DNA of 30,162 bases from a virus, in IMG/VR virus record IMGVR_UViG_3300035698_010356, positions 1 through 30,162 of that record; one strand, given 5' to 3'. The translations under genes were made by a program, and so were the position numbers. Numbering within the stretch: the stretch's first letter is position 1; each line of letters starts with the position of its first letter. The notes below the pieces were generated by a model. That model saw only the letters and a list, made by a program, of their open reading frames with translations. It was not told where the DNA came from and did not search any database. This document shows positions 7,155 through 27,698 of the stretch, piece after piece.

Positions 7155-7159
7155 ACTGC

Positions 7160-7172
7160 TTTTTTATTTTTT
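7160..7172 (+). terminator. T-tract terminator after the capsid gene
   Basis: T6-A-T6 starts 6 nt after the capsid stop codon. Archaeal RNA polymerase terminates on such T-tracts without a hairpin, so this may end or reduce transcription from the capsid promoter before the small genes that follow. Confidence 0.5.
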
Positions 7173-7192
7173 ATAATTATATGAGGTGAATT

Positions 7193-7525
7193 ATGGCATC
7201 AGAACTATTGGATTTCGCAGCTACAAAATACAAACAACCATCTGGAACAGATGGAATAAATGATTGGATGGAATTAAACAATCCACCAACAGAAGTATTC
7301 AGAGTAACCTCTAATGAAGATGGGGATTGGTTCTTTTGTAGAAGGATATGCAAAGTTCAAAATATAAGAATACAGAATCATGGTACAACATGCGCAACAG
7401 GAGCAGACATGGCTCCAGCAAAAGTTACAGTAACACATAGTTCAACTGGAGGGACAGCAAAGATAACAATAGGGCATACAACTTCAAGAGAATCATTTTC
7501 AGTTGTAATAATAGGTACATTATAA
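7193..7525 (+). CDS. Small beta-rich virion protein, decoration candidate A
   Basis: A 110-residue, Thr/Ser-rich beta protein with GAGGTG at 7183-7188 in front of its ATG. It shares a pattern with the next gene product: DGDWFFCRRICKVQNIRI here versus DGDYYDCKQLSRIKVAFA there, and a hydrophobic C-terminal strand SVVIIG. Its place directly after the coat gene and its small size fit a capsid decoration or stabilising protein. The family is not recognised; function is inferred from position. Confidence 0.7.
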   Translation: MASELLDFAATKYKQPSGTDGINDWMELNNPPTEVFRVTSNEDGDWFFCRRICKVQNIRIQNHGTTCATGADMAPAKVTVTHSSTGGTAKITIGHTTSRESFSVVIIGTL

Positions 7526-7803
7526 TGGCAAAAAGACCAGTAGATACAACGCTAACAGTACCGATGGAAACATCAAATCCTAGTCTTGAATTAGTACATT
7601 TTACTACTCAAAGTAAAGATGGAGATTATTATGATTGCAAACAATTATCAAGAATCAAAGTAGCATTTGCTACTAACTTAACTTCAGCAGATAAATGTAT
7701 CCAAGTAAGTTGGGCTATTCAAGCAAATGGACAACCAAGAATAACATTAGTTCCAGAGGAAGCAAGTACTTCTGGTTATCTTACAATAGTGGGGTGGAAA
7801 TGA
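7525..7803 (+). CDS. Small beta-rich virion protein, decoration candidate B
   Basis: A 92-residue protein whose ATG shares the last base of the previous stop codon. It looks like a diverged paralogue of the preceding protein (shared DGD-aromatic-x-C core and a final YLTIVG strand). The two probably form the same fold and may make a hetero-oligomer on the capsid surface. This assignment is by alignment by eye and position only. Confidence 0.7.
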   Translation: MAKRPVDTTLTVPMETSNPSLELVHFTTQSKDGDYYDCKQLSRIKVAFATNLTSADKCIQVSWAIQANGQPRITLVPEEASTSGYLTIVGWK

Positions 7804-8048
7804 TGGCAGCAGGAACTGTAACACAAGATGATGATGGACTTTATCCAGAAGAAAGATTAGTAAGAATCACAACTACAGGAACCACAACTACATACATTTG
7901 TCCTTATTTTGCAGAGATAGTCACTTGTGTTGGAAACAATGAATCTGATGATGATGGAGTTGGAATTGGATTTTCAGGTCAGACAATCACAATAACAGTT
8001 GCATCAAGCACTGATGTAGTATCACTAAGTATAATAGGTAGACAATGA
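7800..8048 (+). CDS. Small beta-rich virion protein, decoration candidate C
   Basis: The start is set at the ATG ATG pair at 7800/7803, which overlaps the previous stop (ATGA) and follows GGGGTGG; the frame is open further upstream but that part lies inside the previous gene. The 82-residue product ends in VVSLSIIGRQ, similar to the SVVIIGTL end of candidate A, and contains an acidic patch SDDDG. Likely a third member of the same small-protein cluster. Confidence 0.7.
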   Translation: MMAAGTVTQDDDGLYPEERLVRITTTGTTTTYICPYFAEIVTCVGNNESDDDGVGIGFSGQTITITVASSTDVVSLSIIGRQ

Positions 8049-8455
8049 AACTAAGCGAATTTGAACTAATAGATGATCTTACAGTAGATAATAAAGTTTA
8101 CAAAAGAGGAACTAAATGTCCTGAATCTGAAGTACCTAGACTTTTAAGACACAATAGAAATTATCTCAAATTAGAATATGAAGCAGGGATTCCTGTACTT
8201 TCAGATGCACAAAAGAAAAAGTACCAAATAGGTAATTTATTTGATGGACCTAAACCTATTATGAAAATAAAACCAAAGCCATTCACACGCGAAAATCTTA
8301 CTGTCAAATGGAATAAGCTTGGAACAAAAGAATTTAAAGAATGGGCTGAAAAGCAATTTGGAGAAGACAATATTGATAAAAGAAACTCAGCAAGAAATAT
8401 TATTTATGATATTTTAGTAGAACAAGAAAAAGGAGAGAACAATGTCTACTTGTGA
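8045..8455 (+). CDS. Hypothetical neck/head protein with KxYKRG N-terminal module
   Basis: A 136-residue protein whose ATG overlaps the previous stop. Residues 1-45 (FELIDDLTVDNKVYKRGTKC... then LLRHNRNYLKLE) resemble the short beta module common in small phage head proteins, in which a (K)xYKxGD-type turn is followed by a helix. The C-terminal 45 residues (LGTKEFKEWAEKQFG...) look like a small helical SAP/HeH-type domain. Probably a structural or DNA-contacting capsid accessory; not recognised precisely. Confidence 0.6.
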   Translation: MKLSEFELIDDLTVDNKVYKRGTKCPESEVPRLLRHNRNYLKLEYEAGIPVLSDAQKKKYQIGNLFDGPKPIMKIKPKPFTRENLTVKWNKLGTKEFKEWAEKQFGEDNIDKRNSARNIIYDILVEQEKGENNVYL

Positions 8456-8786
8456 AGGGATAGGAGATAACAAAGAATTTACAGTAGCAACAGTTTCAGA
8501 TGTAACAATTTATTTCAATGGTGGATCTACAGGAGCAAAAACAAGTGCAAATGATACAGCAACTGAAAAATATTTTGATACTCAATCATCAACTAAAAAT
8601 ATACAGATTAGAAACAATCAAACCATTCAAATAGTTTCAATTAATGGAGTTACTCAAACAGACCCAATAACTGTTATTATAAACAAAGGATGGACTGAAA
8701 AATGGGATACTCCAATAGTTTTTAAAATGGTATTAAGAACAACCATTGCAGGAACAGCAATAAAAATAAGATATAGGGGACGATAA
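8442..8786 (+). CDS. Small beta-rich structural protein
   Basis: A 114-residue Thr/Asn-rich protein with AAGGAGAG just upstream of the ATG, overlapping the previous gene by 14 nt. It begins MSTCEGIGDN and ends in a basic strand IKIRYRGR. Composition is like the other small beta proteins of this cluster, so a decoration or neck role is likely, but no family is recognised. Confidence 0.65.
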   Translation: MSTCEGIGDNKEFTVATVSDVTIYFNGGSTGAKTSANDTATEKYFDTQSSTKNIQIRNNQTIQIVSINGVTQTDPITVIINKGWTEKWDTPIVFKMVLRTTIAGTAIKIRYRGR

Positions 8787-8787
8787 T

Positions 8788-9258
8788 ATGGATAAAAGTT
8801 TTTATCATAAACCAGAATACCGAGAAAAACAAAGATTGTCTCATTTAGGAAAACAACTAGGTAAAGATAATCCGAATTATAAACATGGAAAAAGTTGTGG
8901 AGTTATGATAAAATTATATGGAAAATATCTTAAGAAAGGATTTAATTCAGAAAGCGGAAAGTCTACAAGATTCAAAAAAGGTGAAAACCATCCTAACTGG
9001 AAAGGTGGAAAAACAAAAATAAGGGATATGATTGAAGGATTACAAATCTATAAAAAATGGAGACAAGAAGTATTTAAAAGAGACAATTTTACTTGTAAGA
9101 AATGCTCAAAAAGAGGAGGAGTTATCCATCCTCATCATATAATCCCATTTGCAGTATGTATAGAACAAAAAAGATATGATATGGTAACTAATATTAATAA
9201 TGGAGTAACTTTATGTTTTCCTTGCCATAAAATCAACCATATTAGGGGGATAAATTAA
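8788..9258 (+). CDS. Free-standing HNH homing-type endonuclease
   Basis: A 156-residue DNA endonuclease. The N-terminal half contains two NUMOD3-like DNA-binding motifs (GKDNPNYKHGK at about 25-35 and GENHPNWKGGK at 65-75). The C-terminal HNH domain shows Cys103-x2-Cys106, the HPHHIIP segment (His114, His116, His117), Asn137/138 and Cys143-x2-Cys146-His147. These are the metal- and zinc-binding positions of HNH nucleases. All are intact. It sits alone between structural genes with only 1-2 nt on each side, typical of a mobile homing gene that nicks genomes lacking it. A packaging-associated HNH role is less likely because it is far from the terminase and carries NUMOD motifs. Confidence 0.88.
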   Translation: MDKSFYHKPEYREKQRLSHLGKQLGKDNPNYKHGKSCGVMIKLYGKYLKKGFNSESGKSTRFKKGENHPNWKGGKTKIRDMIEGLQIYKKWRQEVFKRDNFTCKKCSKRGGVIHPHHIIPFAVCIEQKRYDMVTNINNGVTLCFPCHKINHIRGIN

Positions 9259-9259
9259 A

Positions 9260-9562
9260 ATGCCAACACCAACTGGACCAAAATTAATAAGAGTTAAAAC
9301 AACAACAACTGCTTATGCAGGTGAATATATCAAAGTTACTAATTTTACAAGAGGTATAACTATCAGAAAAAAACTTAATTCAAGCGGTGAAGCAGTGATA
9401 GACCCTTCTAGTGAAAGCCAAACATGGAGCACAGGGGATACTGTTCAGGCAGAAATAAATGGAAGGCTTTTAGGATATGCTTCAGGTACTTACTCAAAAT
9501 CAGGAGTTACGCTTACTATGAATGATGCAGCAGACACAACCACGCCTGCTATAAATCTATGA
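9260..9562 (+). CDS. Ig-like small structural protein
   Basis: A 100-residue beta protein with one Ig/carboxypeptidase-regulatory-like domain: a variable strand, NSSGEAVID, then STGDTVQAEINGRLLGY. The same pattern recurs in the N-terminal parts of the proteins at 11468 and 13436. No signal peptide is present, so it is likely a virion part such as a decoration or neck protein. The name stops at the fold level. Confidence 0.65.
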   Translation: MPTPTGPKLIRVKTTTTAYAGEYIKVTNFTRGITIRKKLNSSGEAVIDPSSESQTWSTGDTVQAEINGRLLGYASGTYSKSGVTLTMNDAADTTTPAINL

Positions 9563-9569
9563 GGTAAAA

Positions 9570-11459
9570 ATGAAAAAGAAAACAATATTCATAACTTTAT
9601 TTTTAATAGCTTTGATGGCTTTGACTGTCTATGCTTTTGATATTACATACATAAATTTAGCTTTACCAGTAGATGATTATTACTGGAGTCTTAATCAGGA
9701 TAATATAAGTTTCACAGTAAATTGTTCACCAACTGGAACAGATGGTGGAGATAATAATGTGGCAGATATAATATTTTATGCAAATAATTCAGGAACTTAC
9801 TCAGCTATTGCAAACGATTCAACAGGTGGAATTGCAGGTGCTCGTGTTGATTCAACATTCACAGCAGCAGAACTTAATCTTTCTAGTTTAGGAGATGGGG
9901 AAACTTTTGAATGGTCTGTTTTTTGCATTTTGAATGGTACAGGTTCAGCATATAGAAATTGGTCTATAAACAAAACTATTTATACAGGAGAGGGTCCTAC
10001 ATTTAATACTCAAACACCAAGTAGCACTCAAGGGGCTTCTGCAGAGCAAAATATAACAATAAATGTTTCTGGTGGAGAATCTGATTTTTTTATCTGTGAC
10101 TTTTATACAAATAGGTCTGGGACAAATCGTTCAGATGGCTCCTGGGAGATAGAGGATAATCTATTTTTAGTAAATAATACTCAAGAGATTCTTCATTATA
10201 TATTTGATGAAGGAGTTGTAACTAAATGGAATATGAAATGTTATAGGCATCCTGATCTTGATTTTTATAGATGGGGAACTAATACATCTTTTGAAGTGAA
10301 CACAACAGCTTTATCTGTTGCAGTAACAGCACCTACAACTGGAGATTATGTAAACAATGCAAATTATTCAATTAACTTTACTCCAGCAAGTGCTTTTTTG
10401 TCTTGGTGTTTCCTTTATGTAAATAATACTTTAAATGAAACAATGACTTCACCTACAAGTGATTCAACCAATACTTTTTACTGGCACTCTGTAGATGTAA
10501 ATGGTAGCGAGGTTGTTGTAATGTGTAACGATACCTTAGATAATTATGTAAACTCAACTACACTTACTCTTGTAAAAGACACAACCTATCCTAAGATAAG
10601 CGATATGGGTAATTTTTCAATAGAAAGTTGTTCTATGCTTAGTTTTCAGATAAATACCACAGAAGACTGCACATCAAGTTCAGTATATTATGGACTTGGA
10701 AGTGTGGATAGCACATGGACTAATACAGAAGTTGCTAACACTGGAATAAGATACCACAATTTAACATTTGGATATTATACCGACTTAAACTTTACAGTAA
10801 ACATAACATTGACTGATTTAGCAGGAAATGTAAATGTTTCAGTAGAAACATTTTCACAATCTTCACCAGTAGGACTTTGCACTGGATGGAGTCTTTATTC
10901 ATTAACACGAGGAATGAATGCTACTGACTTAGAAGCGACAGCACCATATATAGAATATGTCTACCTATGGAATGAGTCTGCACAGAGCTGGGATTATAAA
11001 GCAAATGGTTCTGGAATTGATATAGAATTGTTTGAAGGTTCAGCACCATTTATCTATACTTCAACTGATAGTTCATGGTACAGATTGCTAGACTATAATA
11101 ATTCATATAGTAAAAACATTGATAATGGAAGCAACTATCTTGGATTGCTTGACAATTACACCTTTGGAGAGTTTGCTACTGCAAGTATGAAAAATGCAAC
11201 AGCATCAACTACATCTGGAAATGTTACTAATTCAACCCCTAGTGGTGGAAGACTTGAATTTAGGATAAGAGACTTTGCTGCCTGGAACAATACTGGAAAG
11301 AAATGGGTAAGTAAATACTATACATATTCAGTAGAGAATACAACAAATATAGGGCAGTATGCAAATAATAGTTTAGATGCCTTATGGTTATGGTCTGAAA
11401 ATCATATAACATATAATTCAACTAAAAATCATATTGACCGAAACTGGTCTACAACTTAG
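9570..11459 (+). CDS. Secreted, heavily sequon-bearing Ig-like surface protein
   Basis: A 629-residue protein with a clear Sec signal peptide (MKKKTIFITLFLIALMALTVYA, cut predicted near residue 22), given here only as motif positions 1-22. The rest is Ser/Thr/Asn-rich with dozens of N-x-S/T sites and several Ig-like repeats. A late domain begins CTGWSLYSLTRG (about residue 445) and continues to YVYLWNESAQSW, the pattern of the short GWNLISL-type domain of archaeal exoproteins. No C-terminal membrane anchor is seen. GAGGTAA precedes the ATG. Inference: a host-surface-like adhesin or exported virion protein that binds or coats the cell surface. Confidence 0.75.
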   Translation: MKKKTIFITLFLIALMALTVYAFDITYINLALPVDDYYWSLNQDNISFTVNCSPTGTDGGDNNVADIIFYANNSGTYSAIANDSTGGIAGARVDSTFTAAELNLSSLGDGETFEWSVFCILNGTGSAYRNWSINKTIYTGEGPTFNTQTPSSTQGASAEQNITINVSGGESDFFICDFYTNRSGTNRSDGSWEIEDNLFLVNNTQEILHYIFDEGVVTKWNMKCYRHPDLDFYRWGTNTSFEVNTTALSVAVTAPTTGDYVNNANYSINFTPASAFLSWCFLYVNNTLNETMTSPTSDSTNTFYWHSVDVNGSEVVVMCNDTLDNYVNSTTLTLVKDTTYPKISDMGNFSIESCSMLSFQINTTEDCTSSSVYYGLGSVDSTWTNTEVANTGIRYHNLTFGYYTDLNFTVNITLTDLAGNVNVSVETFSQSSPVGLCTGWSLYSLTRGMNATDLEATAPYIEYVYLWNESAQSWDYKANGSGIDIELFEGSAPFIYTSTDSSWYRLLDYNNSYSKNIDNGSNYLGLLDNYTFGEFATASMKNATASTTSGNVTNSTPSGGRLEFRIRDFAAWNNTGKKWVSKYYTYSVENTTNIGQYANNSLDALWLWSENHITYNSTKNHIDRNWSTT

Positions 11460-11467
11460 GTGATAAA

Positions 11468-13429
11468 ATGAAAAAAATAATAACTTTTTTAATGATGATG
11501 GTTTTTTTAGCTTCTTTTGTTTATGCACCTCCAACGCCAGCTCCAGCAAGGGGAACTCTTTTTATAGATGGAGTGCCAGCAGACGGAGTAGCAGTTCAGG
11601 TTAAAAATGACAGAACAGGAGAGACTTTAACTTCTACTCAAGTTCCTTATTTAAATGTAGAAGATGGAGACTATTTTTTTGATATGCAAGAGTTTGCTCT
11701 TGGTTACAACACAGGAGACTTGATTATTGTTTCTTATGGAACTGATATTCAATCTTTCTTAGCAGGAAACTTCCCTTATACAGTAGCTGCAATAAATGCA
11801 GGTGAGGAAGTAGAAGAAGATGTAGAAGAAGGAGTTTCTGGTGGAGAAGATTATGCTACAGTTGATTTATTTTATGGAGACTTTTTTGATATAGAGGTTG
11901 GAAACAACAAGCTTTCTAAACTATTTGAAGGGGAAGTCAAGTTTGATGGTGAGTCTTATGATGTAGAAGAAGTAATATTCTTAAAAGGTCAAGTTCAGAC
12001 TTCTTTAGATGATGAAGATTTTGGGTTAAATCCTTACCTTACATTAGAAGAAATAGAATACAGATATGTTTTCAAAGATGAGATTCCTATTGAAGATATT
12101 AGTGAAGATGAAACACTTACTATTGAAATCTTAGGAGTTGAATACGAGATAAGCAATGCAAATGAAGATGAAATTACTTACATAAAAGGAACAGAATATT
12201 CCCTTTCAGAAGGGGAATCTGTAAACATTGAAGGAAAAACACTTACAGTCTCTCAAGTTGGAGAGGACTATGCTTATATTTCTTATAACGGAGTAAGTGA
12301 AAAAATAGACGAAGAATCGGTTGGAGAAGTAGGCGGAATCGAGGTTTACGCTAAAGACGTAATGGAAGATGATGATGGTCCAGACTTAGTAACAATTAGG
12401 GTCGGAGACAATATCGAAAGAGAAATCCAAAACGGAGATGATTATGTAGTAGATGACGAGGTTTGGGAATGGGTCATTGACTTAGATGCAGACCCTCAAT
12501 TTATTGGAGTAAAAAACCAAGAACCTTTCGAGGAGCTAGATGAAGATGTAGTTCCAATTAAATCAGGTGAAAAAATCTCACTACCAGAAGATTATGTAGA
12601 TATTAAATTCAAAGTAGATACTGTTGATTACTATGACTTAGAGATAGACGAAGATGATGGATATCTTAGAGTTGAAGGAGAATTTTCAAAAGACACAGAA
12701 GACTATGATGAGGTCAATGTAAACAGTGCAGGTATCTTTGATGAAGACTTAGTGCTTATTGACTCAAACGAAATTCAAATAGGAGACAGCGATATTATGT
12801 TAATGGTTGGTTCTTTGAAGATAGGACAACTAGAAGTAAAAAACCTTTTACTAGATATACTTTATGATGGAGTTTCTTTTGCTAGCAAAGACTATGATAT
12901 ATTAGATTACTTTGGAATAATCTTTGAGAACCCAGAGGATGCAGTAGAAGATCAAAAGGATTTCAAAGTTAGTGTTCCAGAAGAAAGGCCAGAGGCACAC
13001 ATTATAATAGGAGAAAAGTTAGAAGAAGAAGAGGAAGAATGTCCTTCTTGCGTATGTGAAATAAAAGAATGTGTATGTCCAACTTGTAATGCTTGTCCTG
13101 TTTGTGAAGAAACAGTTTGCCCAGAGTGCCCTGAAGAAGATAATGATTGGTTAATAACATCTATCGTTGGAATATTAGGTGCTGCAGGTGGAGCAGGTAT
13201 ATTCTTTAAGCTATTCAATAATAAGATATTCACAGGAAAGAATACTGGATTAAAATCATACAGAGGGAGAAATGGAGAACTAAAATTACTTCATAAACAT
13301 CCTGGAACTAAAGGTTATCACGACCCAAATATTTCCCATAGAGGGCTTGAAAAGCACCCAAGAGGAATGGTAGATGTTGGGGATAAATACAAAAAGAATG
13401 CTAAAGGAGAATGGGAGTTTGAGGGGTGA
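11468..13429 (+). CDS. S-layer-like membrane-anchored protein with Cys cluster
   Basis: A 653-residue protein: signal peptide 1-20, Ig-like domain at about 25-105, then acidic beta-rich repeats (e.g. SLSEGESVNIEGKTLTV, VGGIEVYAKDV) whose texture resembles archaeal S-layer proteins. Residues 525-554 hold ten cysteines in C-P-x-C/C-x-C spacing, followed by a membrane helix (about 562-583) and a basic, His-rich C-terminal tail (LHKHPGTKGYHDP, SHRGLEKHPRG) that would be cytoplasmic. The stop overlaps the SD of the next gene. Inference: a viral surface protein imitating or inserting in the host envelope; adhesion, exit or superinfection exclusion are all possible. Confidence 0.7.
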   Translation: MKKIITFLMMMVFLASFVYAPPTPAPARGTLFIDGVPADGVAVQVKNDRTGETLTSTQVPYLNVEDGDYFFDMQEFALGYNTGDLIIVSYGTDIQSFLAGNFPYTVAAINAGEEVEEDVEEGVSGGEDYATVDLFYGDFFDIEVGNNKLSKLFEGEVKFDGESYDVEEVIFLKGQVQTSLDDEDFGLNPYLTLEEIEYRYVFKDEIPIEDISEDETLTIEILGVEYEISNANEDEITYIKGTEYSLSEGESVNIEGKTLTVSQVGEDYAYISYNGVSEKIDEESVGEVGGIEVYAKDVMEDDDGPDLVTIRVGDNIEREIQNGDDYVVDDEVWEWVIDLDADPQFIGVKNQEPFEELDEDVVPIKSGEKISLPEDYVDIKFKVDTVDYYDLEIDEDDGYLRVEGEFSKDTEDYDEVNVNSAGIFDEDLVLIDSNEIQIGDSDIMLMVGSLKIGQLEVKNLLLDILYDGVSFASKDYDILDYFGIIFENPEDAVEDQKDFKVSVPEERPEAHIIIGEKLEEEEEECPSCVCEIKECVCPTCNACPVCEETVCPECPEEDNDWLITSIVGILGAAGGAGIFFKLFNNKIFTGKNTGLKSYRGRNGELKLLHKHPGTKGYHDPNISHRGLEKHPRGMVDVGDKYKKNAKGEWEFEG

Positions 13430-13438
13430 TTTAATGTG
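13421..13438 (+). promoter_or_regulatory. SD deciding a GTG start
   Basis: GAGGGGTGA (13421-13429) ends the previous gene and lies 6 nt before GTG at 13436. The overlapping ATG at 13434 gives only a few codons, so GTG is the correct start of the adaptor gene. Confidence 0.75.
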
Positions 13439-14389
13439 CCTACAAATCCTTATCCGATAAATTTAATTCTTTATGATACAGATGGCTCTACAGTAGTAAC
13501 TTCTAAATTAGTAGTTATGAGAAATGGAACTACAGAAGAGACTTCTAGTGGAACAACCAATGGAAGTGGTGAAGTTATCTTAGATGCCTCTAATTTTGAT
13601 TCTGGCTATACTAATGCAGATGTATTGACCATCTGGAGTACTGATGGAGATAAAACTGTCTATACTACTCATACGATAGATACAGGTGAAGGAAGCTACA
13701 CAACTACACTTACTTATATTGACCTAAGCGGTGGAACAACAGTTTCCCTTAGATATTTTACAGCAAGTCAATTCAGGGAATTTTTTAACATAGACGAATA
13801 CAATTCAAGCTCTTCACCTGCAGGGATTAAATCTACACAGATTGAAAGAGTTGGAGCTGGAGTTGAAGCAGAAATAGACAGGATTACTAGATCTAAATTT
13901 GATTATAATGATGGAAGCTATCATGCTGCTACAGACGAATATCATGATTGCAATTATAAATACCAAAAAGACTTCTTTTCTAAATATGGACCTATTGTTG
14001 ATGTTACTAAATTTGAAATCAATACAGAAGTAGAAGGTGCAACTGCAAGCTATACTGATTTAGATGAAACAGATTATGCTAATTATTGGAGTTATGATGC
14101 CACTACAGGAAGATTTAGAATAGAAGAAAGTTCTTATTACCCTACTGTTGGACCTAAACAAGTTAGAATGACTTATACTTATGGAATGGCTACAGTTCCT
14201 AATGATATTAAATCACTTGCTATCTTAATGACTGGAAGGCAACTAGCACAGACTGGCCTTATGTCTTTAGCTATCAAAGGCACAGAGATGGAAGGCAGTG
14301 GAAGCAGTATTAATATACTTCAAAGCATGGATAATCAAATAGAAGGGTTGCTAAACAATCGCATGAGAATCACAGCAGAAAATATTTAA
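13436..14389 (+). CDS. Head-tail connector (gp6-like adaptor) with N-terminal Ig-like domain
   Basis: A 317-residue, two-part protein starting at GTG. Residues 1-100 form an Ig-like domain (NGSGEVILDASNFDSGY...). Residues about 108-317 follow the gp6/gp15-type adaptor pattern: RYFTASQFREFFNI, a helix with VEAEIDRITRSKF, a YHDC...YGPIVDVTKFEI strand pair, a VRMTYTYG strand, and a final helical part after VPNDIKSLAIL. Adaptors form a ring under the portal and build the neck. The added Ig-like domain probably projects from the neck. Position after the surface genes and before the tail terminator agrees. Confidence 0.78.
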   Translation: MPTNPYPINLILYDTDGSTVVTSKLVVMRNGTTEETSSGTTNGSGEVILDASNFDSGYTNADVLTIWSTDGDKTVYTTHTIDTGEGSYTTTLTYIDLSGGTTVSLRYFTASQFREFFNIDEYNSSSSPAGIKSTQIERVGAGVEAEIDRITRSKFDYNDGSYHAATDEYHDCNYKYQKDFFSKYGPIVDVTKFEINTEVEGATASYTDLDETDYANYWSYDATTGRFRIEESSYYPTVGPKQVRMTYTYGMATVPNDIKSLAILMTGRQLAQTGLMSLAIKGTEMEGSGSSINILQSMDNQIEGLLNNRMRITAENI

Positions 14390-15700: not shown

Positions 15701-16336
15701 ATGACAATTAATGCAACAGGAGATGAGGATGCTTGGCAAAGACAGTGCCTTGTAGAAGTAACAAGTGATTCAACTCATATAGTAAGACTCACTGCAATGA
15801 CTGAAACAGTAGATATAGACATGGGTGAAAGAGGACTAGATGTAATCAATTTGATTAATTTAGGACAGATACCAAAGCATACACCTATTGGATTAACTAC
15901 AGTAACAATAGAAGGATATCCACAGGAAGCTGCAACAGAAACAACATCTACTGGAGATGGTTTTTTTGATTTGTTTGCTTCTTCACCACTAATAACAGGA
16001 TCACAACCTGCAGATGTGGATGTTTCAAACACATTAACTAGATACAGAGTAGCTGTCCTTTGGACCAACGATGCAGATTGTGATGATGCAAGTGATGATG
16101 TAGATAGTGCAGACAAAGGAATGAGATTTGTAATGGCTAATTGTTTTTGTACTAGTTGTAAAACTAGCTTTACAGATGGAATACTAAAACAAACACTTGT
16201 TTTCAAAGGAACTGCTTTTGGAAAAGATGGTGGTTCTACTGCACCAGGAATCAATATCAAGATGGAATCCTGTGATGCTACTGCTGCTATAGCCGCACTT
16301 GGAAACTACACTGCTGGAACAACTAATTGGGCGTGA
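15701..16336 (+). CDS. Tail tube protein A
   Basis: A 211-residue beta-rich protein with AAGGTGA upstream. It shares with the next gene the blocks GDEDAWQR, ETVDIDMGERG, LGQIPKHT, VTIEGYP and CTSCKTSFTDG. The position before the chaperones and tape measure, plus the TxDID-type strand followed by a Pro/Gly loop, fits the hexameric tail tube subunit. It carries a CFCTSC cysteine motif. Its length matches a simple tube subunit without an extra domain. Confidence 0.72.
   Translation: MTINATGDEDAWQRQCLVEVTSDSTHIVRLTAMTETVDIDMGERGLDVINLINLGQIPKHTPIGLTTVTIEGYPQEAATETTSTGDGFFDLFASSPLITGSQPADVDVSNTLTRYRVAVLWTNDADCDDASDDVDSADKGMRFVMANCFCTSCKTSFTDGILKQTLVFKGTAFGKDGGSTAPGINIKMESCDATAAIAALGNYTAGTTNWA
16148..16209 (+). 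repeat. 62-bp exact repeat, copy 1 (tail tube A)
   Basis: Bases 16148-16209 are identical to 17048-17109, exactly 900 bp downstream, while the flanking sequence of the two genes has diverged. The repeat begins with a small inverted repeat CTAGTT-GTAA-AACTAG (16152-16167). It encodes the shared segment around CTSCKTSFTDG. Confidence 0.9.
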
Positions 16337-16342: not shown

Positions 16343-17224
16343 ATGGCATTAGGAGCAACAGGAAGTGAAGATGCGTGGCAAAGGAATGCTTACATTTCAA
16401 TAGAATCAAGCACCACTGTAAAGATGCAATATGAAGCAGTTTCTGAGACTATCGACATTGACACAGGAGAAAGAGGAATGGATGTTATTACCCTTCTTAA
16501 TATGGGTCAGATTCCAAAACATACAGCACCAGGGATTTGTACTATAACTTTTGAAGGATATCCAATTCAAGCAGGAACATCTAATACAAGCGGTGGAACA
16601 AGAGGAACTCCAACAGGAGGAGTTGCTACAGGATATTGGGAATTATTCTCAACATCTGGTCACATAGATACAGCACAAGCACTTGATTTAGATATAAGCA
16701 ATACACTTACACCATATAGAGTAGCAATCTTATGGACAGATGAAGACAGGACAAGTGGAACTGCAAGTGCAGCAAGTAATGCCACACCTAGTATAACAGG
16801 AACAGCAGCAACTTCTGGAGATCATGATGGTAAAATGCTTTACATTAGAAGTGGAACAGGAATAGGTGGAAGGTATATGATTGTAAGTGGTGAAGGAACA
16901 AGTGTTTATACACTTACTGCAGGAGATACACCTCAGACAGATTTAGGTGGAGCAAGTCCAGATAATCCGTATTATATCTATCCAACTGGAAGCGGTGCTT
17001 TAAAGGCTGCAAGCAAAGGAGCTAGATATGTATTAGCAGATTGTAGATGTACTAGTTGTAAAACTAGCTTTACAGATGGAATACTAAAACAAACACTTGT
17101 TTTCAAAGGTTCTATGATAGCAAAAGACGGAAGCACACCACTTGTTAAAATGGAATCAAATGATGGAACAGTTCAATTACCAGAATTAGGAAATTACACA
17201 GCGAATACTACAAGATGGGCATAA
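16343..17224 (+). CDS. Tail tube protein B with inserted domain
   Basis: A 293-residue paralogue of tube protein A. Shared blocks are SEDAWQRN, ETIDIDTGERG, MGQIPKHT, FEGYP and CTSCKTSFTDG. Relative to A it gains about 80 residues (roughly 137-222), including GKMLYIRSGTGIGG and PDNPYYIYP. That insert follows the pattern of a small beta module found in many virion proteins (SGTG-x-G-x-x then a Pro-aromatic end). It probably projects from the tube. Two paralogous tubes suggest a mixed tube or a major/minor pair. Confidence 0.72.
   Translation: MALGATGSEDAWQRNAYISIESSTTVKMQYEAVSETIDIDTGERGMDVITLLNMGQIPKHTAPGICTITFEGYPIQAGTSNTSGGTRGTPTGGVATGYWELFSTSGHIDTAQALDLDISNTLTPYRVAILWTDEDRTSGTASAASNATPSITGTAATSGDHDGKMLYIRSGTGIGGRYMIVSGEGTSVYTLTAGDTPQTDLGGASPDNPYYIYPTGSGALKAASKGARYVLADCRCTSCKTSFTDGILKQTLVFKGSMIAKDGSTPLVKMESNDGTVQLPELGNYTANTTRWA
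17048..17109 (+). repeat. 62-bp exact repeat, copy 2 (tail tube B)
   Basis: Identical to 16148-16209. Perfect identity, including third codon positions, within otherwise diverged paralogues points to recent gene conversion or very strong constraint. Confidence 0.9.
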
Positions 17225-19451: not shown

Positions 19452-19883
19452 ATGGCAAATGAAGATAGGGCAAGAATAACAGATGGGACATACATTATAG
19501 ATTTAACAATAATTTCACTATCTCATGGGTTAGATAAACAACTTATGATATATCCTATGCCTAGCGAACCTGGAAGTGATACTCTTACTTATCTTATTGA
19601 TTTAAGCAGATGTAAAGAAGCAGTTACTATTCAAGGATGGATTCTTCCTAATTCTACAGATAGTGGATTAACACAAAAAGGTCATATAATTAATCTAATG
19701 AGGCTAACAGCAACTGACTTAACACTTACTTGGGGTGCAGCAGGAACTACAGAAACTATGAAAGGAAATATCCAAAAGGCTGATATCAAAGAAGAAGCAG
19801 TAAGAGTTGGTAGTGTTACAACAAATGAAACTAAAGCTTATAATGTGCAGATTGTATTTGTAAGAGGAACTAAATATAACTGA
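19452..19883 (+). CDS. Distal tail protein candidate
   Basis: A 143-residue, beta-rich protein directly after the tape measure. It contains KEAVTIQGWI, TLTWGAAGT and VQIVFVRGTKYN strands. Short beta proteins here usually form the ring joining tube and baseplate (Dit-like). The ATG follows AGAGGTTAA with a long spacer. Fold-level inference only. Confidence 0.6.
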   Translation: MANEDRARITDGTYIIDLTIISLSHGLDKQLMIYPMPSEPGSDTLTYLIDLSRCKEAVTIQGWILPNSTDSGLTQKGHIINLMRLTATDLTLTWGAAGTTETMKGNIQKADIKEEAVRVGSVTTNETKAYNVQIVFVRGTKYN

Positions 19884-20851
19884 TGGCAAAAAGAATAACA
19901 GAATCAAGGATAAAGAAATGGATGATAGCTACAGGAGTAGTTGGTGTACCATTAGGAATAGCTCTCATTTTATTTATGACAAGTTCTGATATGATTAAAG
20001 TAATAGACCACTCTGGAGATATTGTTACAAATGAATCAGTTGTTTTTATTAATATGACTTTTATTCCTAATGAAGATATTTTTATCTATCCTATGGAGTT
20101 ATCCTGGGGTTTGTCTGCAGACCCAGAAGTTGAGATAACCAAACTATACAGAACTTGGGGAAGTGGTCTTAGAGAATTGAACATGAACAAAACCTGCACA
20201 GGAAGATGGTGTGGATGTTATTGGTGTACTAAATACAACACTGCAAAATATATTTATGTTTTTAGAGCAAGAAGAAAATATACTCTTGTCTATGAAATCC
20301 ACAAAGAACCTAATTCAACTATTAAATGGACTTGGTTAAACAACACAATAGACCCTTACATTGTAGGATATGAAAATGTTTACTCATTTAATAAAGTTCC
20401 AATACTAGGTGAAGTTCCAATTAAAGATTACAAGACAACTTATGAAACTTTCAAAAAGAATGATACAGTCATAGAACATATTAATTTTGTAGGATATAAA
20501 GAAATAAAGATTCCAATATACAAACAGATTAAAGTTGATGGAAAAATTGAGAATGGAACACTGCTTGGATATAAAATAATCAATGAAACAGAAACAGGAA
20601 TAGTTGGTTACAAAGAGGTCAAAGACAAACAAATATCAGTAAAGATAAAAAACAAAGTTATTAAAAATTCCTATGTCTATAAAAATCAATTAATAAAATT
20701 CACAATACCAATAGGAGACAGAAATCTAGAAGAGTTTGGAGAGTGCAGAAAGTATGAAATAGAAAAAGGTGTTTGTGAAATAGTCAATCTAACTAAGTTA
20801 TGCAAAGAGGTGTTCAATGAAAAGAATAATACTATGGATGCTTTTACTTAG
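19883..20851 (+). CDS. Membrane-anchored exported protein with Cys motif
   Basis: A 322-residue protein with a basic start and one N-terminal membrane helix (about 14-32), so type II-like or signal-anchored. The outside part has sequons, a cysteine motif CTGRWCGCYWC (Cys105, 110, 112, 115) and a degenerate repeated strand (VGYENVY, VGYKEIKI, LGYKIIN, VGYKEVK). Three more cysteines lie near the end. Its ATG overlaps the previous stop, and its last 35 bases overlap the adhesin start. It may assist the adhesin or form part of the tail tip; family not recognised. Confidence 0.65.
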   Translation: MAKRITESRIKKWMIATGVVGVPLGIALILFMTSSDMIKVIDHSGDIVTNESVVFINMTFIPNEDIFIYPMELSWGLSADPEVEITKLYRTWGSGLRELNMNKTCTGRWCGCYWCTKYNTAKYIYVFRARRKYTLVYEIHKEPNSTIKWTWLNNTIDPYIVGYENVYSFNKVPILGEVPIKDYKTTYETFKKNDTVIEHINFVGYKEIKIPIYKQIKVDGKIENGTLLGYKIINETETGIVGYKEVKDKQISVKIKNKVIKNSYVYKNQLIKFTIPIGDRNLEEFGECRKYEIEKGVCEIVNLTKLCKEVFNEKNNTMDAFT

Positions 20852-23800
20852 TCTTTTAGTTTATCCTTGCTTTGGATATGATGCATTCCACGCAGCAGGT
20901 GATGCAGTCATTGACAGAAATGACATTATGGCTTTGGGTGCAGGATGGACTAATATAATAAATCATACATTCATAAACACAACACTTACTATTACAAATA
21001 TTTCTATTGATGTTGTAGATAAAAATGCTAATACAAAAGTACAGTTCAGATGTATGTATGAATCCCCACAAGGAACTTTCAATGTAAGAGCTGTTGCAGA
21101 CAAGAACATAACTATCAACTGTGATTTTGAAGGCAAACAAAATTATCCTATGAACCTTTCAGGATGCCAAGTAGGAGATCATATCGCTTATTATCAGATA
21201 GATGGTTCTGGAGTTACACTCCAACCAGAGAGAACATCAACAGCTGGAAAGACAATTATGTATAAATTGAATCTTTGTAATCCAAGTTGTAATGCTATGT
21301 CTACTACAAATGCAGAGATATCTATGGCTTATTGGGTAGATGCTGGAACAGCAGTAGACACAACCCCTCCAACTAACTCAACTTGGAATGTAACAAGTAA
21401 CAATCTAAAGACTGGTTCTAGCACAATAGCTTGGCAAACAGGAGAGACAGTTACTCTTCTTACAAATGCTCTCAGCTTTACAGCATCTTCAGATGAAAAC
21501 ACTAATATGACTTGTATCCTAGATGAAGACTATAATTACACTCTTGCTTATGCTACTGATTCAAATTACAAAGCAGCAACCACTGATACAAATGCACATT
21601 CATATACTCTTTATGATAACATAAGCATTGGAGATCATTGTGTTTATTGTAGTTTTATAGATGCTGCTGGAAATACTTATCCTAATTCAACATCTGGTTG
21701 CCTTGCTATCACAAGGATTGAACCACCTAAACCAAGAAATAGAGGTCCTGCAAATGCTTCAACTAATACCTCTGCTGAGATTAATTTCACCTTTTCAACA
21801 CTTATAGGTTCTTCGTTGTATATATCAACTTGTGAGAGATGGGATAATAGCACAGGAGCTTGGAAAAAGAATCAAACACTTAGTTCAGCATCTAACTTTG
21901 CATATAAAAGAGAGATAATTATAGACCATTGGAATACTTCAGATGAAATAAAAGATTATAATATCAAATTAATTCTTAATTCAACTAATTTAGATTATTC
22001 ACAATTCAATACTGCTGAAGGTTTAATGGAATTTAGAGACAATGATTCTATCTTGATTCCTCATTATGTAAGGTTCTGGAACAACACCAACAATTCAGAA
22101 GTTTTTGTAAGCTACAACAAGACTGGAGAAAATGCTACTTTTTGGGTGTATTATGGAAACACATCTTCTGTTGAAGATGAGAGTAATATTTCAATTACTT
22201 ATATTTATGACAATGGAGAGATTCTTTATGATGATGCTCAATATCCTGAGAATGGAACTTTGTTAGATGTTCACTCTTGGAATATATCGGCAGGTGCTGC
22301 AGAAACTAAACTTGCTTATTATTCAACTAAATATGCATATAGTGGAAATATGAGTTTGGTTACTTTTAATTATTCAAATAAAGAAATAGGTGCTTGGATT
22401 CACACTACACCAGATAGGTATAATTATTATGGTTGGTTTTATGATGATGGACACCTAACTGGTGCTGCTCACGTTATGGCATCTAAAGGTGGTGGAGATT
22501 TATCTTATGGTACTCATACAAGAACTATATTTTTTGATAGTAAGAATTATGCTGGCTATTACAATTTTATGAATAATGTGTCCCCTTACATCCATAATGG
22601 ATGGAACTTGACACCACTTCAAGGCAGATGGGCCAAGTGGGAGATGGAATATGTAGACAGCAATTCTACCTGGTATGCTGTTGATGATAACTATAATAAT
22701 TTCAAAGATGATGGAGCATTTAATGGTTTGGCTTCTCTTTATTTAGATTACCAAGATACAAATGCTTTCCACTTGACAGGAGCAGAATACACAGACCCAG
22801 TTCAATCACAGAAATCTCTTTGGTTAGATGATTTCTTTATGACAAGATGGTCTAATACAAGTGTTAGAAGTTATAGTGCAGAAACTTCTTCTTCTTCAAA
22901 TCCAATAGACAACAATACAGTTGAGAATTTTGACCCAGTTAACCTTACAAATGGATATTATATATGGGGTGTGAAATGTACTGATTCAGAAGCTCAAATA
23001 AATTGGAGTGTTAACTGGAGTCTGATTGTTGATATAGGTGCAGCAGACACAAAAACACCAACATGGACAGGAATACCTGACAATCTTACTTTAGAATATC
23101 GTGAAGACTCACTTAATGTTAATTTCAATGCTACTGATAATATAGCCGTTACTGGTTTTACAACAAACTATTCAAATAATTTTTCTATAGATGCAACAGG
23201 AGTAATGACAAACAACACAGATAATATAATTTATATTTACTATGTTAATGTAACTGCTAGTGATGCTGCTGGAAACAAGAACTCTACAGTATTCAAGATT
23301 AATGTAAGTGACACAACAGCTCCGTTAATTGACTCTCCTTCAAATGTTACTTTAGAATATGGGGCAGATTCTCTTGAGGCTGATTTCAATGAGACAGACC
23401 ATTCTCCTGTAGATTGGGGAATTAACGACTCAACTAATTTTAACATCACACAGTCTGGTGTGCTTAGAAACAAAACAGAGTTAGCAGTAGGAGTGCATTG
23501 GGTTAATGTTTCTTTAAATGATACATCTCTTAATATGAACTTTGCTTTATTAAACGTCACAGTAGAAGATTCAAGAGCACCTACAATAGATTATCCCAAG
23601 AACAGGACTATACAATATTACAAGGCACTTAGTGTTGATTTTAATTACAGTGATTATTCAAGTGTAAATTGGGGTATGAATGATTCTACAAGATTTAATC
23701 TTACTCAATCAGGAGTTTTAAGAAACAAGACTTTGCTTGCAATAGGTGCTTATCATGTCAATGTTTCTATCAATGACACTTACCTGAATATGAACTCAAC

Positions 23801-26800
23801 TATTTTCAATGTAACAATAATAGATACAGACTCACCTTCAATAGAATCTCCTGCAAACAAGACAATAGAAGCATGTGTAAATTCAGTCTCTCTTGATTTC
23901 AATGCAACTGACCCATCTGGATTAAGCTGGTGGTCTATTAATTACACAAGCAATTTGTCTATCGACCAGAGTGGTATCCTCACCAATATAACAAAATTAA
24001 ATGCAGGAGTTTATATTACAAATGTTTCTATCAATGACACACTAGACAATACAAACTCTACGCTTTACAACTTGACTGTTGAAGATACTTTAGCTCCTAA
24101 AATAGATGCTCCTGCTAATATGACTGCGTGGTTTGGAAAAACAATGATAGAAGAAGATTTTAATGCAACAGATTGTAGCAATTTAGATTGGGGAATTAAC
24201 GACTCAACTAATTTTAACATCACACAGTCTGGTGTGCTTAGAAACAAAACAGCTTTAGCTATTGCTTTCTTTGTAGTAAACATTTCAGTGAATGACACTT
24301 ACCTGAATATGAACTCTACATTGTTTACAGTGAATGTAAGCCAATCTATAATAGAGGTTTTCATCGAACTCAATGGGCTGAAAGCAAACAGAACTTATGA
24401 ATATGATACAACTACTAATATCTCTGGATTGATAAACAATTCAATTTCTAAAGTTTGTGTCAATATAGACGATGGGACTAACAGATATTCAAATTATTCC
24501 TGTTCACTTAATAGCTCCTTTGATTATTTAATAGATAAGTTGGTTATAGATAAATTCAATGATGGAAGCAAAGTGATAAATGTAACTACTGCTTATTGTT
24601 ACCAAGAATCAGCAAATGTATCTACTAGCTGTGGTGGTCTTTCTACAGGAAATTATAGTGTAATTGGAGCATGGGCAACTGCAGAAAATTGTTCAGATGG
24701 AGATTGGAACACTTCAGGGTATGGAACTGCAGTATCTGTAATTTACATAAACTACACAAAACCCTCTTCTTCTGTGGAAGGAACTATATGGACAGTTAAG
24801 GATAGCTGTAGTACCAAAAATATCACGATACCTAATGATTGTTGGAATCGTTTTAGTGATAAAATATCATTTTTAATATACTCCCCAAATAATATAAATA
24901 GAATTTATTGGTTGTGTAAATATTCAGGTTCAACATATAAAACTATTGGAGAATCGTGTACTACTAACAATTTTGCTTACGAAGAAGCAATGTGGTGGAA
25001 CATTCCATCTAATAAAACATATATTGATATAGACAACAAAACAGATTTAATTGAATTGAATATAAACATCACAGGTTATAATGAATCTGAAGATTTCAGA
25101 ATAACAGTAGGAGACACAAATCCAATAGATGTACTAATCACAGGAAAACTAAAAGGAAACACTTATGAGATAGATGAGTTCATTTATCAAGATGTTATTA
25201 ATAGTATTTTAAACATCTCATGCACAACAGCTTGTGAAGAAGTAATTTATTTAAATATCACAACTGCTGGAAATTTAACAACTGCTGGAAACCTAAACTT
25301 TACAATAACTTCTTATAATCTAGACGGAGCAAATGTTTTTGAAAAAGAACAGAACTTTAGCAGTAAGCAAGAAGGATATGAAAATGGAACTACTGGAACT
25401 GTAGCTCCTTTCACTTTTGATGATATGTATTCAAATGCTTCTTACTATAAATGGAACTGGACTAATTTAGAAATTGGTTCTGGAACTTATCAGACCTCTT
25501 CAACTACAAGCATTATAGATAGTTGCAACGCACAAGGAGGATTCCCAAGCAGTAAATGTCTCCATAATGAACCAGATGAAAAAAGCAGTGCAGGAAGGTT
25601 TAATTCAGATGTTTATCCAGACCTTGATTTGAGATACATAAATCAACTTGACTTCAATACTTATTCAAGGATGGGGGGATGGAGAAGCCCAGGAAGCTAT
25701 GCAAATGTTATGACAAAGATTGGATTTTACGGAGAAACAAACGAAGAAGTGGTTTACATACTTGAGAATGAATTAGAGTTGGCAACTTGGCAACAAGCTA
25801 TAGCAAACAATATTTCTTATTCGATGTATAAAGTAGATCCTACTACTTGGAAGATTGATTCTATCAAAAACGGAAGAGCATCAACTTCAACTTATCAATT
25901 AGGAAACCTTGAAGGACCAATAAGAATTTTCTTCCATAATTATATAAGGCAGGACAGTGCAATTTCTACTCCTTATTCTTACACAGAGATAGGACAGTTC
26001 AATGTTTCAGGATTAGGATTAAACATCAGCAGTGGAACTTATAAAACATCCTTTTCAAACTTCACAAAACATCTTACTACTTTCAATACAAACCTTCAGA
26101 GAGTCAGGGTAACATTCGATAGAATATTACCAGAAAACTTTGGAACAACATCAACAGTCACTCTTTGGGTAAGCAACGATAATTCAACTTGGGAGTCTGC
26201 AGTAAACGGAACATTCCATTCATTTGACTCTACTGGAAAAGATTTAAACATAAGGCTAGAACTGAATACAACCAACCAAACTATCTCTCCTATTATTACC
26301 AACTATGAGGTAGATGTAATTTCTTCTAGTGGAAATGATTTAAAAATCTATGTAGGTCAGGATTACATAAGTTCTATTGACACACCAGATATTGATTTGA
26401 ATTATAATATCTCAACTATTAGTCCTTATAATTTTACTGGAAACGATACTAATATACTTAATTATATCCAGGCGTGCAGCAAAGGATCTTGTCTTGTTCC
26501 TATTACTTTCAAACTAAACCAGTCTGGAATGATTGAAATATCCAGTATGAATTACACAAAGAATCCTAACAGGATTAATTTCAGTAACTTAAATAGTTTT
26601 GAAGACTTGACTAGTATACCTATTTATTTTACTTCTGGAGAAGGTATTGTTCAAATAAGCAACCCTATGCTTGAATATTATGGTAGCAAAAATATATCTG
26701 TTTTTGCCTTTAAAGAAGACAACACTAGCATTAATGACACTATGATAATCAGAGCAAAGTATTCCCATTTTAATATAACTTATCCATCTGGGCAGGAGTA

Positions 26801-27698
26801 TTGGCAGATATCTCCTCAGTCAAGAAATCAGTCAGCAGTAGAACCTTACGGACAAAATGACTCTACTGGAATATGGGAGATAACAAGCAGAGCCTACGAT
26901 GAAGGATTTGATTTATATGCTAAATATAATGAAAGTGCTAACTCTTGTATTATTCATAATAATTTCACTGCTTACTTAGATGTGCCACTTTGCTACCAAG
27001 AGTTTGCAAATCAGTCAAGCGATTGTGGTGGGCTTTCCACTGGAAGCTATGGTGAATATCTTGATGCAGGAGTTCCTGGTCCAACTTATATTTACACAAA
27101 CTACACAAAGCCCCACGATGCTATGAATGATTCAATCTGGGGATTTAGACTTGGAAACATCACTATGAACACTACTGTCAAAAGTGATTGTTGGGATTAT
27201 TCTACTACTATGATTATGTTGAGGCTAATGGCAAATAATAATAATTACAATAACTCAGCAGAATGTTATAACGGAAGTAGTTGGTTAAGCCTTTATGCAG
27301 AAGATTCAAATGGTTATCCTACTGGAACAAGTGCAGATACTCCTTCTCCTGCTTGGGATGGCAACTGGAGTTCATATACATTCCCAGGAGCAAATTGGAG
27401 AAGAACAACAGCAACAGGGGTTTACAATGTTTATATCTACGAAGAAGCAATGTGGTGGAATATTTCAAATGTCACAGTCTTAGGAAATAAAGTTATAAAT
27501 ATCTCTCTTAATGCAAGCTATCAAAAACTTATCTCAGATATGAACAAATCAGAAGAAGCAAATATATTTACTTACACAGACTTAGGATGTGATGGAACTA
27601 CAGCTCCTTACTATCTTTATTATTTTTGCTTTATAGCCCATTGCGATAGTTGTGTGCTCACCGAAGATTGGAACAGAAGCTGTGATTGGGTGGAATAG
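20817..27698 (+). CDS. Giant secreted adhesin / tail fibre candidate (2293 aa)
   Basis: The ATG is set by AGAGGTG (20806-20812) 4 nt upstream and by the signal peptide (residues 1-21, IILWMLLLSLLVYPCFG). Domains in order: Ig-like parts to about 340; a DUF2341-like part (about 360-450, AYKREIIIDHW...NYTIK-type strands); a LamG-like jelly roll (about 460-700); five cadherin/HYR-like repeats (about 740-1175) with the motif DWGINDSTNFNITQSG; a CYQE...CGGLSTG...YEEAMWWN module (about 1258-1400); middle beta domains (1520-1950); and a second CYQE module (about 2056-2225). It is full of N-x-S/T sites. It likely binds host surface sugars or proteins. No C-terminal anchor is visible. Confidence 0.8.
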   Translation: MKRIILWMLLLSLLVYPCFGYDAFHAAGDAVIDRNDIMALGAGWTNIINHTFINTTLTITNISIDVVDKNANTKVQFRCMYESPQGTFNVRAVADKNITINCDFEGKQNYPMNLSGCQVGDHIAYYQIDGSGVTLQPERTSTAGKTIMYKLNLCNPSCNAMSTTNAEISMAYWVDAGTAVDTTPPTNSTWNVTSNNLKTGSSTIAWQTGETVTLLTNALSFTASSDENTNMTCILDEDYNYTLAYATDSNYKAATTDTNAHSYTLYDNISIGDHCVYCSFIDAAGNTYPNSTSGCLAITRIEPPKPRNRGPANASTNTSAEINFTFSTLIGSSLYISTCERWDNSTGAWKKNQTLSSASNFAYKREIIIDHWNTSDEIKDYNIKLILNSTNLDYSQFNTAEGLMEFRDNDSILIPHYVRFWNNTNNSEVFVSYNKTGENATFWVYYGNTSSVEDESNISITYIYDNGEILYDDAQYPENGTLLDVHSWNISAGAAETKLAYYSTKYAYSGNMSLVTFNYSNKEIGAWIHTTPDRYNYYGWFYDDGHLTGAAHVMASKGGGDLSYGTHTRTIFFDSKNYAGYYNFMNNVSPYIHNGWNLTPLQGRWAKWEMEYVDSNSTWYAVDDNYNNFKDDGAFNGLASLYLDYQDTNAFHLTGAEYTDPVQSQKSLWLDDFFMTRWSNTSVRSYSAETSSSSNPIDNNTVENFDPVNLTNGYYIWGVKCTDSEAQINWSVNWSLIVDIGAADTKTPTWTGIPDNLTLEYREDSLNVNFNATDNIAVTGFTTNYSNNFSIDATGVMTNNTDNIIYIYYVNVTASDAAGNKNSTVFKINVSDTTAPLIDSPSNVTLEYGADSLEADFNETDHSPVDWGINDSTNFNITQSGVLRNKTELAVGVHWVNVSLNDTSLNMNFALLNVTVEDSRAPTIDYPKNRTIQYYKALSVDFNYSDYSSVNWGMNDSTRFNLTQSGVLRNKTLLAIGAYHVNVSINDTYLNMNSTIFNVTIIDTDSPSIESPANKTIEACVNSVSLDFNATDPSGLSWWSINYTSNLSIDQSGILTNITKLNAGVYITNVSINDTLDNTNSTLYNLTVEDTLAPKIDAPANMTAWFGKTMIEEDFNATDCSNLDWGINDSTNFNITQSGVLRNKTALAIAFFVVNISVNDTYLNMNSTLFTVNVSQSIIEVFIELNGLKANRTYEYDTTTNISGLINNSISKVCVNIDDGTNRYSNYSCSLNSSFDYLIDKLVIDKFNDGSKVINVTTAYCYQESANVSTSCGGLSTGNYSVIGAWATAENCSDGDWNTSGYGTAVSVIYINYTKPSSSVEGTIWTVKDSCSTKNITIPNDCWNRFSDKISFLIYSPNNINRIYWLCKYSGSTYKTIGESCTTNNFAYEEAMWWNIPSNKTYIDIDNKTDLIELNINITGYNESEDFRITVGDTNPIDVLITGKLKGNTYEIDEFIYQDVINSILNISCTTACEEVIYLNITTAGNLTTAGNLNFTITSYNLDGANVFEKEQNFSSKQEGYENGTTGTVAPFTFDDMYSNASYYKWNWTNLEIGSGTYQTSSTTSIIDSCNAQGGFPSSKCLHNEPDEKSSAGRFNSDVYPDLDLRYINQLDFNTYSRMGGWRSPGSYANVMTKIGFYGETNEEVVYILENELELATWQQAIANNISYSMYKVDPTTWKIDSIKNGRASTSTYQLGNLEGPIRIFFHNYIRQDSAISTPYSYTEIGQFNVSGLGLNISSGTYKTSFSNFTKHLTTFNTNLQRVRVTFDRILPENFGTTSTVTLWVSNDNSTWESAVNGTFHSFDSTGKDLNIRLELNTTNQTISPIITNYEVDVISSSGNDLKIYVGQDYISSIDTPDIDLNYNISTISPYNFTGNDTNILNYIQACSKGSCLVPITFKLNQSGMIEISSMNYTKNPNRINFSNLNSFEDLTSIPIYFTSGEGIVQISNPMLEYYGSKNISVFAFKEDNTSINDTMIIRAKYSHFNITYPSGQEYWQISPQSRNQSAVEPYGQNDSTGIWEITSRAYDEGFDLYAKYNESANSCIIHNNFTAYLDVPLCYQEFANQSSDCGGLSTGSYGEYLDAGVPGPTYIYTNYTKPHDAMNDSIWGFRLGNITMNTTVKSDCWDYSTTMIMLRLMANNNNYNNSAECYNGSSWLSLYAEDSNGYPTGTSADTPSPAWDGNWSSYTFPGANWRRTTATGVYNVYIYEEAMWWNISNVTVLGNKVINISLNASYQKLISDMNKSEEANIFTYTDLGCDGTTAPYYLYYFCFIAHCDSCVLTEDWNRSCDWVE
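23410..23478 (+). repeat. 69-bp exact repeat in adhesin, copy 1
   Basis: Bases 23410-23478 are identical to 24184-24252 (offset 774) and encode the same DWGINDSTNFNITQSG segment in two non-adjacent repeats. A third, unequal repeat between them carries a diverged version, so the identity reflects recent copying or conversion. Confidence 0.9.
23772..23797 (+). repeat. 26-bp exact repeat in adhesin, copy 1
   Basis: Identical to 24291-24316 (offset 519). It encodes NDTYLNMNS at the end of two cadherin-like repeats. The offset differs from that of the 69-bp repeat, so different repeat pairs share different patches. Confidence 0.85.
24184..24252 (+). repeat. 69-bp exact repeat in adhesin, copy 2
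   Basis: Second copy of the sequence at 23410-23478, in the fifth cadherin-like repeat. Confidence 0.9.
24291..24316 (+). repeat. 26-bp exact repeat in adhesin, copy 2
   Basis: Second copy of the sequence at 23772-23797. Confidence 0.85.

Follow-up and report, generated by a model that had tools for sequence, protein, structure and literature searches.

The stretch of DNA considered here (the window) is the entire IMG/VR record IMGVR_UViG_3300035698_010356, which comprises 30,162 bases and carries the late structural gene block of a tailed virus. The subject of the analysis is a pair of genes beginning at positions 9570 and 11468 (genes are designated by their first position, and coordinates are collected in Table 1). 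These open reading frames (ORFs) are placed, as stated in an original prediction made from the sequence, between decoration-like genes (8442 and 9260) and the gene of a head-tail adaptor (13436). A clear Sec signal peptide stands at the beginning of both products, as had also been predicted: that of 9570 reads MKKKTIFITLFLIALMALTVYA, with cleavage before F, and that of 11468 reads MKKIITFLMMMVFLASFVYA, with cleavage before P. Signal peptides were called by a hand-made hydropathy rule and not by SignalP, and the rule was positive for three of the 31 window genes, namely 9570, 11468 and 20817. To judge from profile comparisons, the product of 11468 is almost certainly a homologue of the surface layer (S-layer) proteins of archaeal cells, a relationship which was not recognised in the original prediction; on the sequence evidence, it is a viral version of the S-layer protein, inherited in this virus lineage together with the structural genes.

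A relative of the virus was found by searches of whole archaeal genomes with the large terminase (TerL), on a contig of 31,698 bases (G669:C7) binned in a genome of 0.8 Mb that belongs to a large archaeal phylum of small genomes, which is taken to be a DPANN group, probably the Nanoarchaeota. A profile made from the two viral 11468 proteins matches 85 of the 371 genomes of this phylum, usually with one or two ORFs per genome, mostly of 600-900 amino acids (aa), with a best cellular E value of 4e-40 and with one match in G669 itself. The cellular matches tested pass the gathering score of the Pfam family S_layer_C (PF05124; 28-44 bits against 23.9) and are therefore S-layer proteins; one of them also touches the NCBIfam family S_layer_MJ (TIGR01564), below its cut-off. 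Like these proteins, 11468 has a signal peptide, a similar overall length and a core of two colinear stretches, together about 330 residues. Unlike them, it lacks the N- and C-terminal segments that jointly form the S_layer_C outer domain: the family is matched by 18 of the 18 cellular members of the alignment and by neither of the two viral ones (E values up to 1). Thus, 11468 is homologous to S-layer proteins, but does not belong to the S_layer_C family.

In place of the outer domain, the viral pair has an immunoglobulin-like (Ig-like) domain at the N-terminus and, after the core, a Cys-rich or Pro-rich linker followed by a predicted transmembrane helix. This helix and the basic tail behind it point to a membrane-anchored rather than a free secreted protein, so that the earlier description of both products as secreted holds for the signal peptides, but not for the simple secretion of 11468. 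The claim that both are rich in N-glycosylation sequons was likewise borne out in part. When observed counts were compared with those of shuffled sequences, 9570 had 39 sequons against 14.8 expected (z 7.4), whereas 11468 had 1 against 2.3 and its homologue 1 against 2.5, that is, no enrichment; the capsid, adaptor and tail-tube proteins, which served as internal control, were not enriched in the same test.

In the tree, the viral pair forms a clade of its own with a support of 100/100. Structure prediction, envisaged as a check in the original prediction, gave a confident, S-layer-like core for 11468, with a predicted local distance difference test score (pLDDT) of about 85-94 for the greater part of aa 130-520. 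The best matches of this core among solved structures are 3u2g and 3u2h, with Z scores of 9.1 (213 residues) and 9.0 (194 residues); these are the only ones spanning aa 126-517, the remaining matches covering about 75 residues. Both are crystal structures of the DUF1608 domain of the S-layer protein MA0829 from Methanosarcina acetivorans, a protein which, like 11468, has a membrane tether at its C-terminus. No sequence match of 11468 to MA0829 was obtained in PDB and Pfam searches, and a plain Foldseek search of the model against the PDB and viral models gave no match at E <= 0.001 and none that was significant. The alignment supplied to AlphaFold2 included cellular S-layer sequences, so that the fold match supports the sequence result and does not stand by itself.

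The product of 9570 has a homologue in the same place of the related virus (G669:C7:19153-21366, 29% identity, 2e-26), and 17 of its sequons are aligned between the two proteins, against 2.3 expected. Its N-terminal part is similar (E 5.5e-32) to a cellular surface protein from G771, a further genome of the phylum; the cellular protein has a C-terminal anchor and adjoins pilin-like genes. Together with the S-layer homology of 11468, this resemblance strengthens the earlier view that the products look like host envelope proteins. The model of 9570 was unusable (mean pLDDT 32) and its fold could not be assigned; moreover, sequence searches of both proteins against Pfam, NCBIfam, PHROGs and PDB gave no match above the cut-off. 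No Cys follows the signal peptide of either protein, and the superinfection-exclusion proteins of lipoprotein type were rejected as a candidate because the lipobox is missing at the cleavage site.

Export is not limited to the two genes named in the original prediction. In the tail block, 19883 is signal-anchored and sequon-rich, and 20817 encodes a giant exported protein with a DUF2341 domain (PF10102) and Ig/HYR-like repeats. All four exported genes have positional counterparts in G669:C7: that of 19883 (G669:C7:30142-31335) is also signal-anchored, with 14 sequons against 4.6 expected, and that of 20817 begins with a signal peptide where the contig is cut. The synteny between the two viruses comprises the portal (4e-84), the capsid protein (3e-112), 8442, 9260, 9570, 11468 (5e-94) and 13436 (counterpart L257:3439-4449, phmmer 9.7e-38), and continues with both tail tubes, the tape measure and 19452; the order 9260, 9570, 11468, 13436 is identical. 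In addition, the 11468 proteins are as similar to each other as the capsid proteins (41% in both cases), and the G669 homologues of 9570 and 11468 carry signal peptides, the latter also the C-terminal helix. Homologues devoid of such peptides, which would have spoken for ordinary capsid proteins, were thus not what the relative offered.

Placement in related archaeal viruses, which had been suggested as a further check, is therefore conserved in G669:C7, while in the structural blocks of the more distant TerL-related proviruses G110, G224 and G112 and of the haloviruses HGTV-1 and Hardycor1 the signal-peptide rule gave no positives and no such exported genes were present; the G540 locus held TerL plus host genes only. 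Taken together, these comparisons indicate that the exported set is a stable trait of the lineage and not one general to archaeal tailed viruses. A capsid profile, run on 103 genomes from the order to which G669 belongs, revealed no third virus, no syntenic virus was found in IMG/VR by single-protein scans (TerL, capsid protein and 11468) or profile scans (TerL, the tail-tube pair and 11468), and neither 11468, the capsid protein nor a cellular S-layer protein had a match among GenBank phages.

The same comparisons bear on the notion that the two genes are host genes brought in by a chimeric contig, or cargo acquired recently. Cellular homologues do exist and the genes are missing from the more distant proviruses, but an independent contig has the same genes, order and neighbours, and the viral S-layer pair forms its own clade with a conservation equal to that of the capsid protein, which makes this notion scarcely credible. 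A chimeric assembly, which the original prediction had named as a possible source of error, was rejected on the grounds of this synteny, unless G669:C7 had been misassembled in the same way.

The neighbouring genes complete the structural block (Table 1). Among named GenBank phages, the nearest TerL proteins are those of haloviruses, with 28% identity. The capsid gene (680 aa; 729 aa in the homologue) looks like a fusion, with a putative protease-like N-terminus, a charged linker and a capsid domain at aa 455-671. Between 8442 and 9260 there is an HNH endonuclease gene (8788-9258), which is missing at that place in the G669 virus and is probably a homing insertion. The tail-tube-like genes are tandem paralogues, 57% identical, the second with an additional internal segment, and the G669 virus likewise has two. 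The tape measure protein is very short, which implies a short tail; its relative in the G669 virus has 536 aa. Finally, the gene at 29168-29434, near the contig end, encodes a protein of 88 aa that has a single transmembrane helix at its C-terminus and a coiled-coil look and is possibly holin-like (XhlA type).

Table 1. Features of the window, with the evidence for each (sequon counts are observed against expected)
Feature	Position	Strand	Evidence and remarks
Large terminase (TerL)	1024-2433		
Portal	3661-5064		
Major capsid protein (MCP)	5112-7154	+	phrog_9953, E 0.0014; 41% identity to G669:C7:15616-17805; yardstick of conservation
Small decoration-like gene	8442		Upstream of 9570; matched in G669:C7
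Small decoration-like protein without signal peptide	9260..9562	+	Directly upstream of 9570; phmmer 1.4e-18 to the G669 virus (L256:18863-19156), same place
Exported, sequon-rich surface protein, 629 aa	9570..11459	+	Signal peptide at aa 1-22; Ig-like stretches; 'CTGW...' motif in the C-terminal part
Type I membrane protein of 653 aa, homologous to S-layer proteins	11468..13429	+	Homologue G669:C7:21354-23423, 41% identity
Signal peptide of 11468, aa 1-20	11468..11527	+	Hydropathy rule
N-terminal Ig-like domain of 11468, aa about 21-115	11528..11812	+	No counterpart in cellular S-layer proteins
S-layer core part 1, aa 138-398	11879..12661	+	172.8 bits against a profile of cellular S-layer proteins (hmmsearch; positions 106-381 of the profile)
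S-layer core part 2, aa 452-523	12821..13036	+	27.3 bits, profile positions 519-589
Cys-rich linker of 11468, in place of the S-layer outer domain	13037..13147	+	Pro-rich in G669 homologue
C-terminal transmembrane helix, about aa 562-578	13151..13201	+	Hydropathy; also in G669 homologue
Basic cytosolic tail of 11468	13205..13426	+	Sequence; also in G669 homologue
Head-tail adaptor with N-terminal Ig-like domain	13436..14389	+	Directly downstream of 11468; phrog_442, E 1.8e-5
Tail-tube-like paralogues	15701-16336 and 16343-17224		
Tape measure protein, 379 aa	18304..19443	+	phrog_1272, E 5.7e-12; G669 homologue 1.9e-41
Signal-anchored, sequon-rich protein, tail block, third exported gene	19883..20851	+	10 against 2.6 sequons
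Giant exported protein of 2293 aa, encoded by the fourth exported gene, tail block	20817..27698	+	Signal peptide; 138 against 50 sequons
Tail protein	27699-29171		

Concerning the function of the exported set, one proposal is that 9570, 19883 and 20817 act as surface adhesins which, with 11468 as their S-layer tether, glue infected cells together or attach them to partner cells, and aid spread, the core serving only to anchor the display. All three are Ig-like and either large or rich in sequons, 9570 is similar to a cellular surface protein in its N-terminal half, and the G669 virus has an exported fibre protein with LamG and Peptidase_S74 domains. We nevertheless consider this proposal distinctly unlikely, as it leaves unexplained that an S-layer core, and not simply some membrane anchor, is conserved like the capsid protein. 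The fibre protein (L256:11647-14565, 972 aa) is encoded between the portal and capsid genes of G669:C7; its LamG domain is a lectin domain, and Peptidase_S74, an intramolecular chaperone known as the end domain of phage tail fibres, sits in this case behind a signal peptide. As for the HYR repeats of 20817, their use as query led in IMG/VR only to L027 (IMGVR_UViG_3300014504_000046), and none was confirmed in the genome contigs. The L027 protein (5855-11863, 2002 aa) is a membrane-anchored surface protein with LamG-like and related HYR-like repeats; the element is a different, non-tailed one, with an integrase and P-loop ATPases, and is unrelated to the window virus.

A second proposal is that the exported proteins join the virion at the membrane as components of the neck or the tail tip. 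Gene 11468 abuts the adaptor gene, 20817 sits between tail genes, the Peptidase_S74 domain of the G669 fibre is typical of tail fibres, and the N-terminal Ig-like domains of 11468 and the adaptor resemble each other, although the similarity (hhalign probability 64%, E 6.5e-5, one comparison) is weak and only a lead. The heads of tailed viruses, however, assemble in the cytoplasm, whereas the signal peptide, the selection for sequons and the transmembrane anchor locate these proteins to the membrane or beyond it, which makes a structural role in the virion unlikely. Furthermore, the homologues are S-layer proteins and not virion proteins, and the distant proviruses and the two haloviruses examined do without these genes; overall, membership of the virion is very improbable. 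Another scheme, in which an anchored patch of 11468 would form a virus-made port in the S-layer, and its cytosolic tails and the Ig-like domain shared with the adaptor would bring finished virions to the membrane for assembly, docking and exit there, is quite improbable as well.

Virus-encoded proteins that act at the host surface are also known from other systems. In PMC11576556, viruses of sheathed methanogens and ANME-1, both head-tailed and icosahedral, are described as encoding exported SH-like homologues of the host sheath protein, usually without its cap domains; these homologues are proposed to enter and weaken the sheath for exit. The alternative roles given there, which include the delivery to the surface of particles or lysis factors, may be extended to 11468. 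Like the SH-like proteins, 11468 is virus-encoded, has a signal peptide and is homologous to a protein of the host's outer layer, part of which (the outer domain here, usually the cap domains there) is missing from the viral form. The SH-like proteins belong to an amyloid-like sheath of methanogen and ANME hosts and have 159-288 aa, no membrane anchor being reported for them (PMC11576556), while 11468 and its homologue have an S-layer core of another fold, 653-689 aa, a C-terminal anchor, an added N-terminal domain and a link to a small-genome phylum. By hypothesis, then, 11468 would act like an SH-like protein without being one. Surface proteins encoded in or near tail genes also exist in bacterial phages. 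Lom of lambda and Cor of phi80 and N15 are exported and act on the surface of the infected cell; they differ from 11468 in being small outer-membrane proteins or lipoproteins of bacteria, and not homologues of a surface lattice.

We infer that 11468 would be made late, together with the virion proteins, and exported by the Sec system along with 9570. It would remain tethered to the membrane and enter the host S-layer by means of its core, and the absence of the outer domain, together with the foreign anchor, would create gaps or weak patches in the layer, through which virions could leave an archaeal cell that would otherwise retain them. In the same late programme, 9570 and the tail-block proteins 19883 and 20817 may be glycosylated partners or adhesive surface proteins. 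That 11468 opens the S-layer for exit is a tentative proposal, which falls just short of an even balance, while the explanation taken as a whole, a viral S-layer homologue and a coat remodelled for exit, is the best available and stands midway between doubt and acceptance.

The strongest competitor of the exit proposal is the replacement of the receptor, because the S-layer protein serves as receptor for two archaeal tailed viruses (PMC12494034). According to this alternative, 11468 and the glycosylated 9570 would cover or replace the host S-layer, as the likely receptor, thereby excluding superinfection and allowing released virions to avoid debris. The lack of the S_layer_C outer domain in 11468, its different N-terminal domain and the retention of aligned sequons in 9570 agree with such a role. 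The position within the late structural block would be late for exclusion and appears to fit exit better than an early function of that kind, and the membrane anchor kept in both viruses is not needed for masking; we regard receptor replacement as somewhat unlikely.

Several points also weigh against exit through a remodelled S-layer. The viral proteins are far from their cellular relatives (about 25-31% identity in the core, and 24.5% when the copy of the G669 virus is compared with the S-layer protein encoded by G669 itself), and at this distance the lattice may no longer accommodate them; their co-assembly with the layer of the host is hypothetical. Furthermore, 11468 is present in only two viral genomes, the fold match of its model is not fully independent of the sequence result, and the link to a host is one of the relative, G669:C7, and depends only on binning.

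Little is known of how tailed viruses leave archaea, whose cells possess an S-layer and lack peptidoglycan, and least of all for uncultured lineages of small genomes. No paper on a virus-encoded S-layer homologue was found in the open-licence literature searched, although absence there is no proof. With its core kept, its outer domain lost and an anchor gained, 11468 is a concrete candidate for the exit step, which can be tested with purified proteins, and it would extend the idea of sheath mimicry in methanogen viruses to the commonest archaeal envelope. In addition, the gene is a marker for finding such viruses and assigning their hosts, and its case indicates that an envelope protein derived from the host can reach the conservation of a capsid protein. 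Viruses with these genes probably remodel or weaken the coat of their host late in infection.

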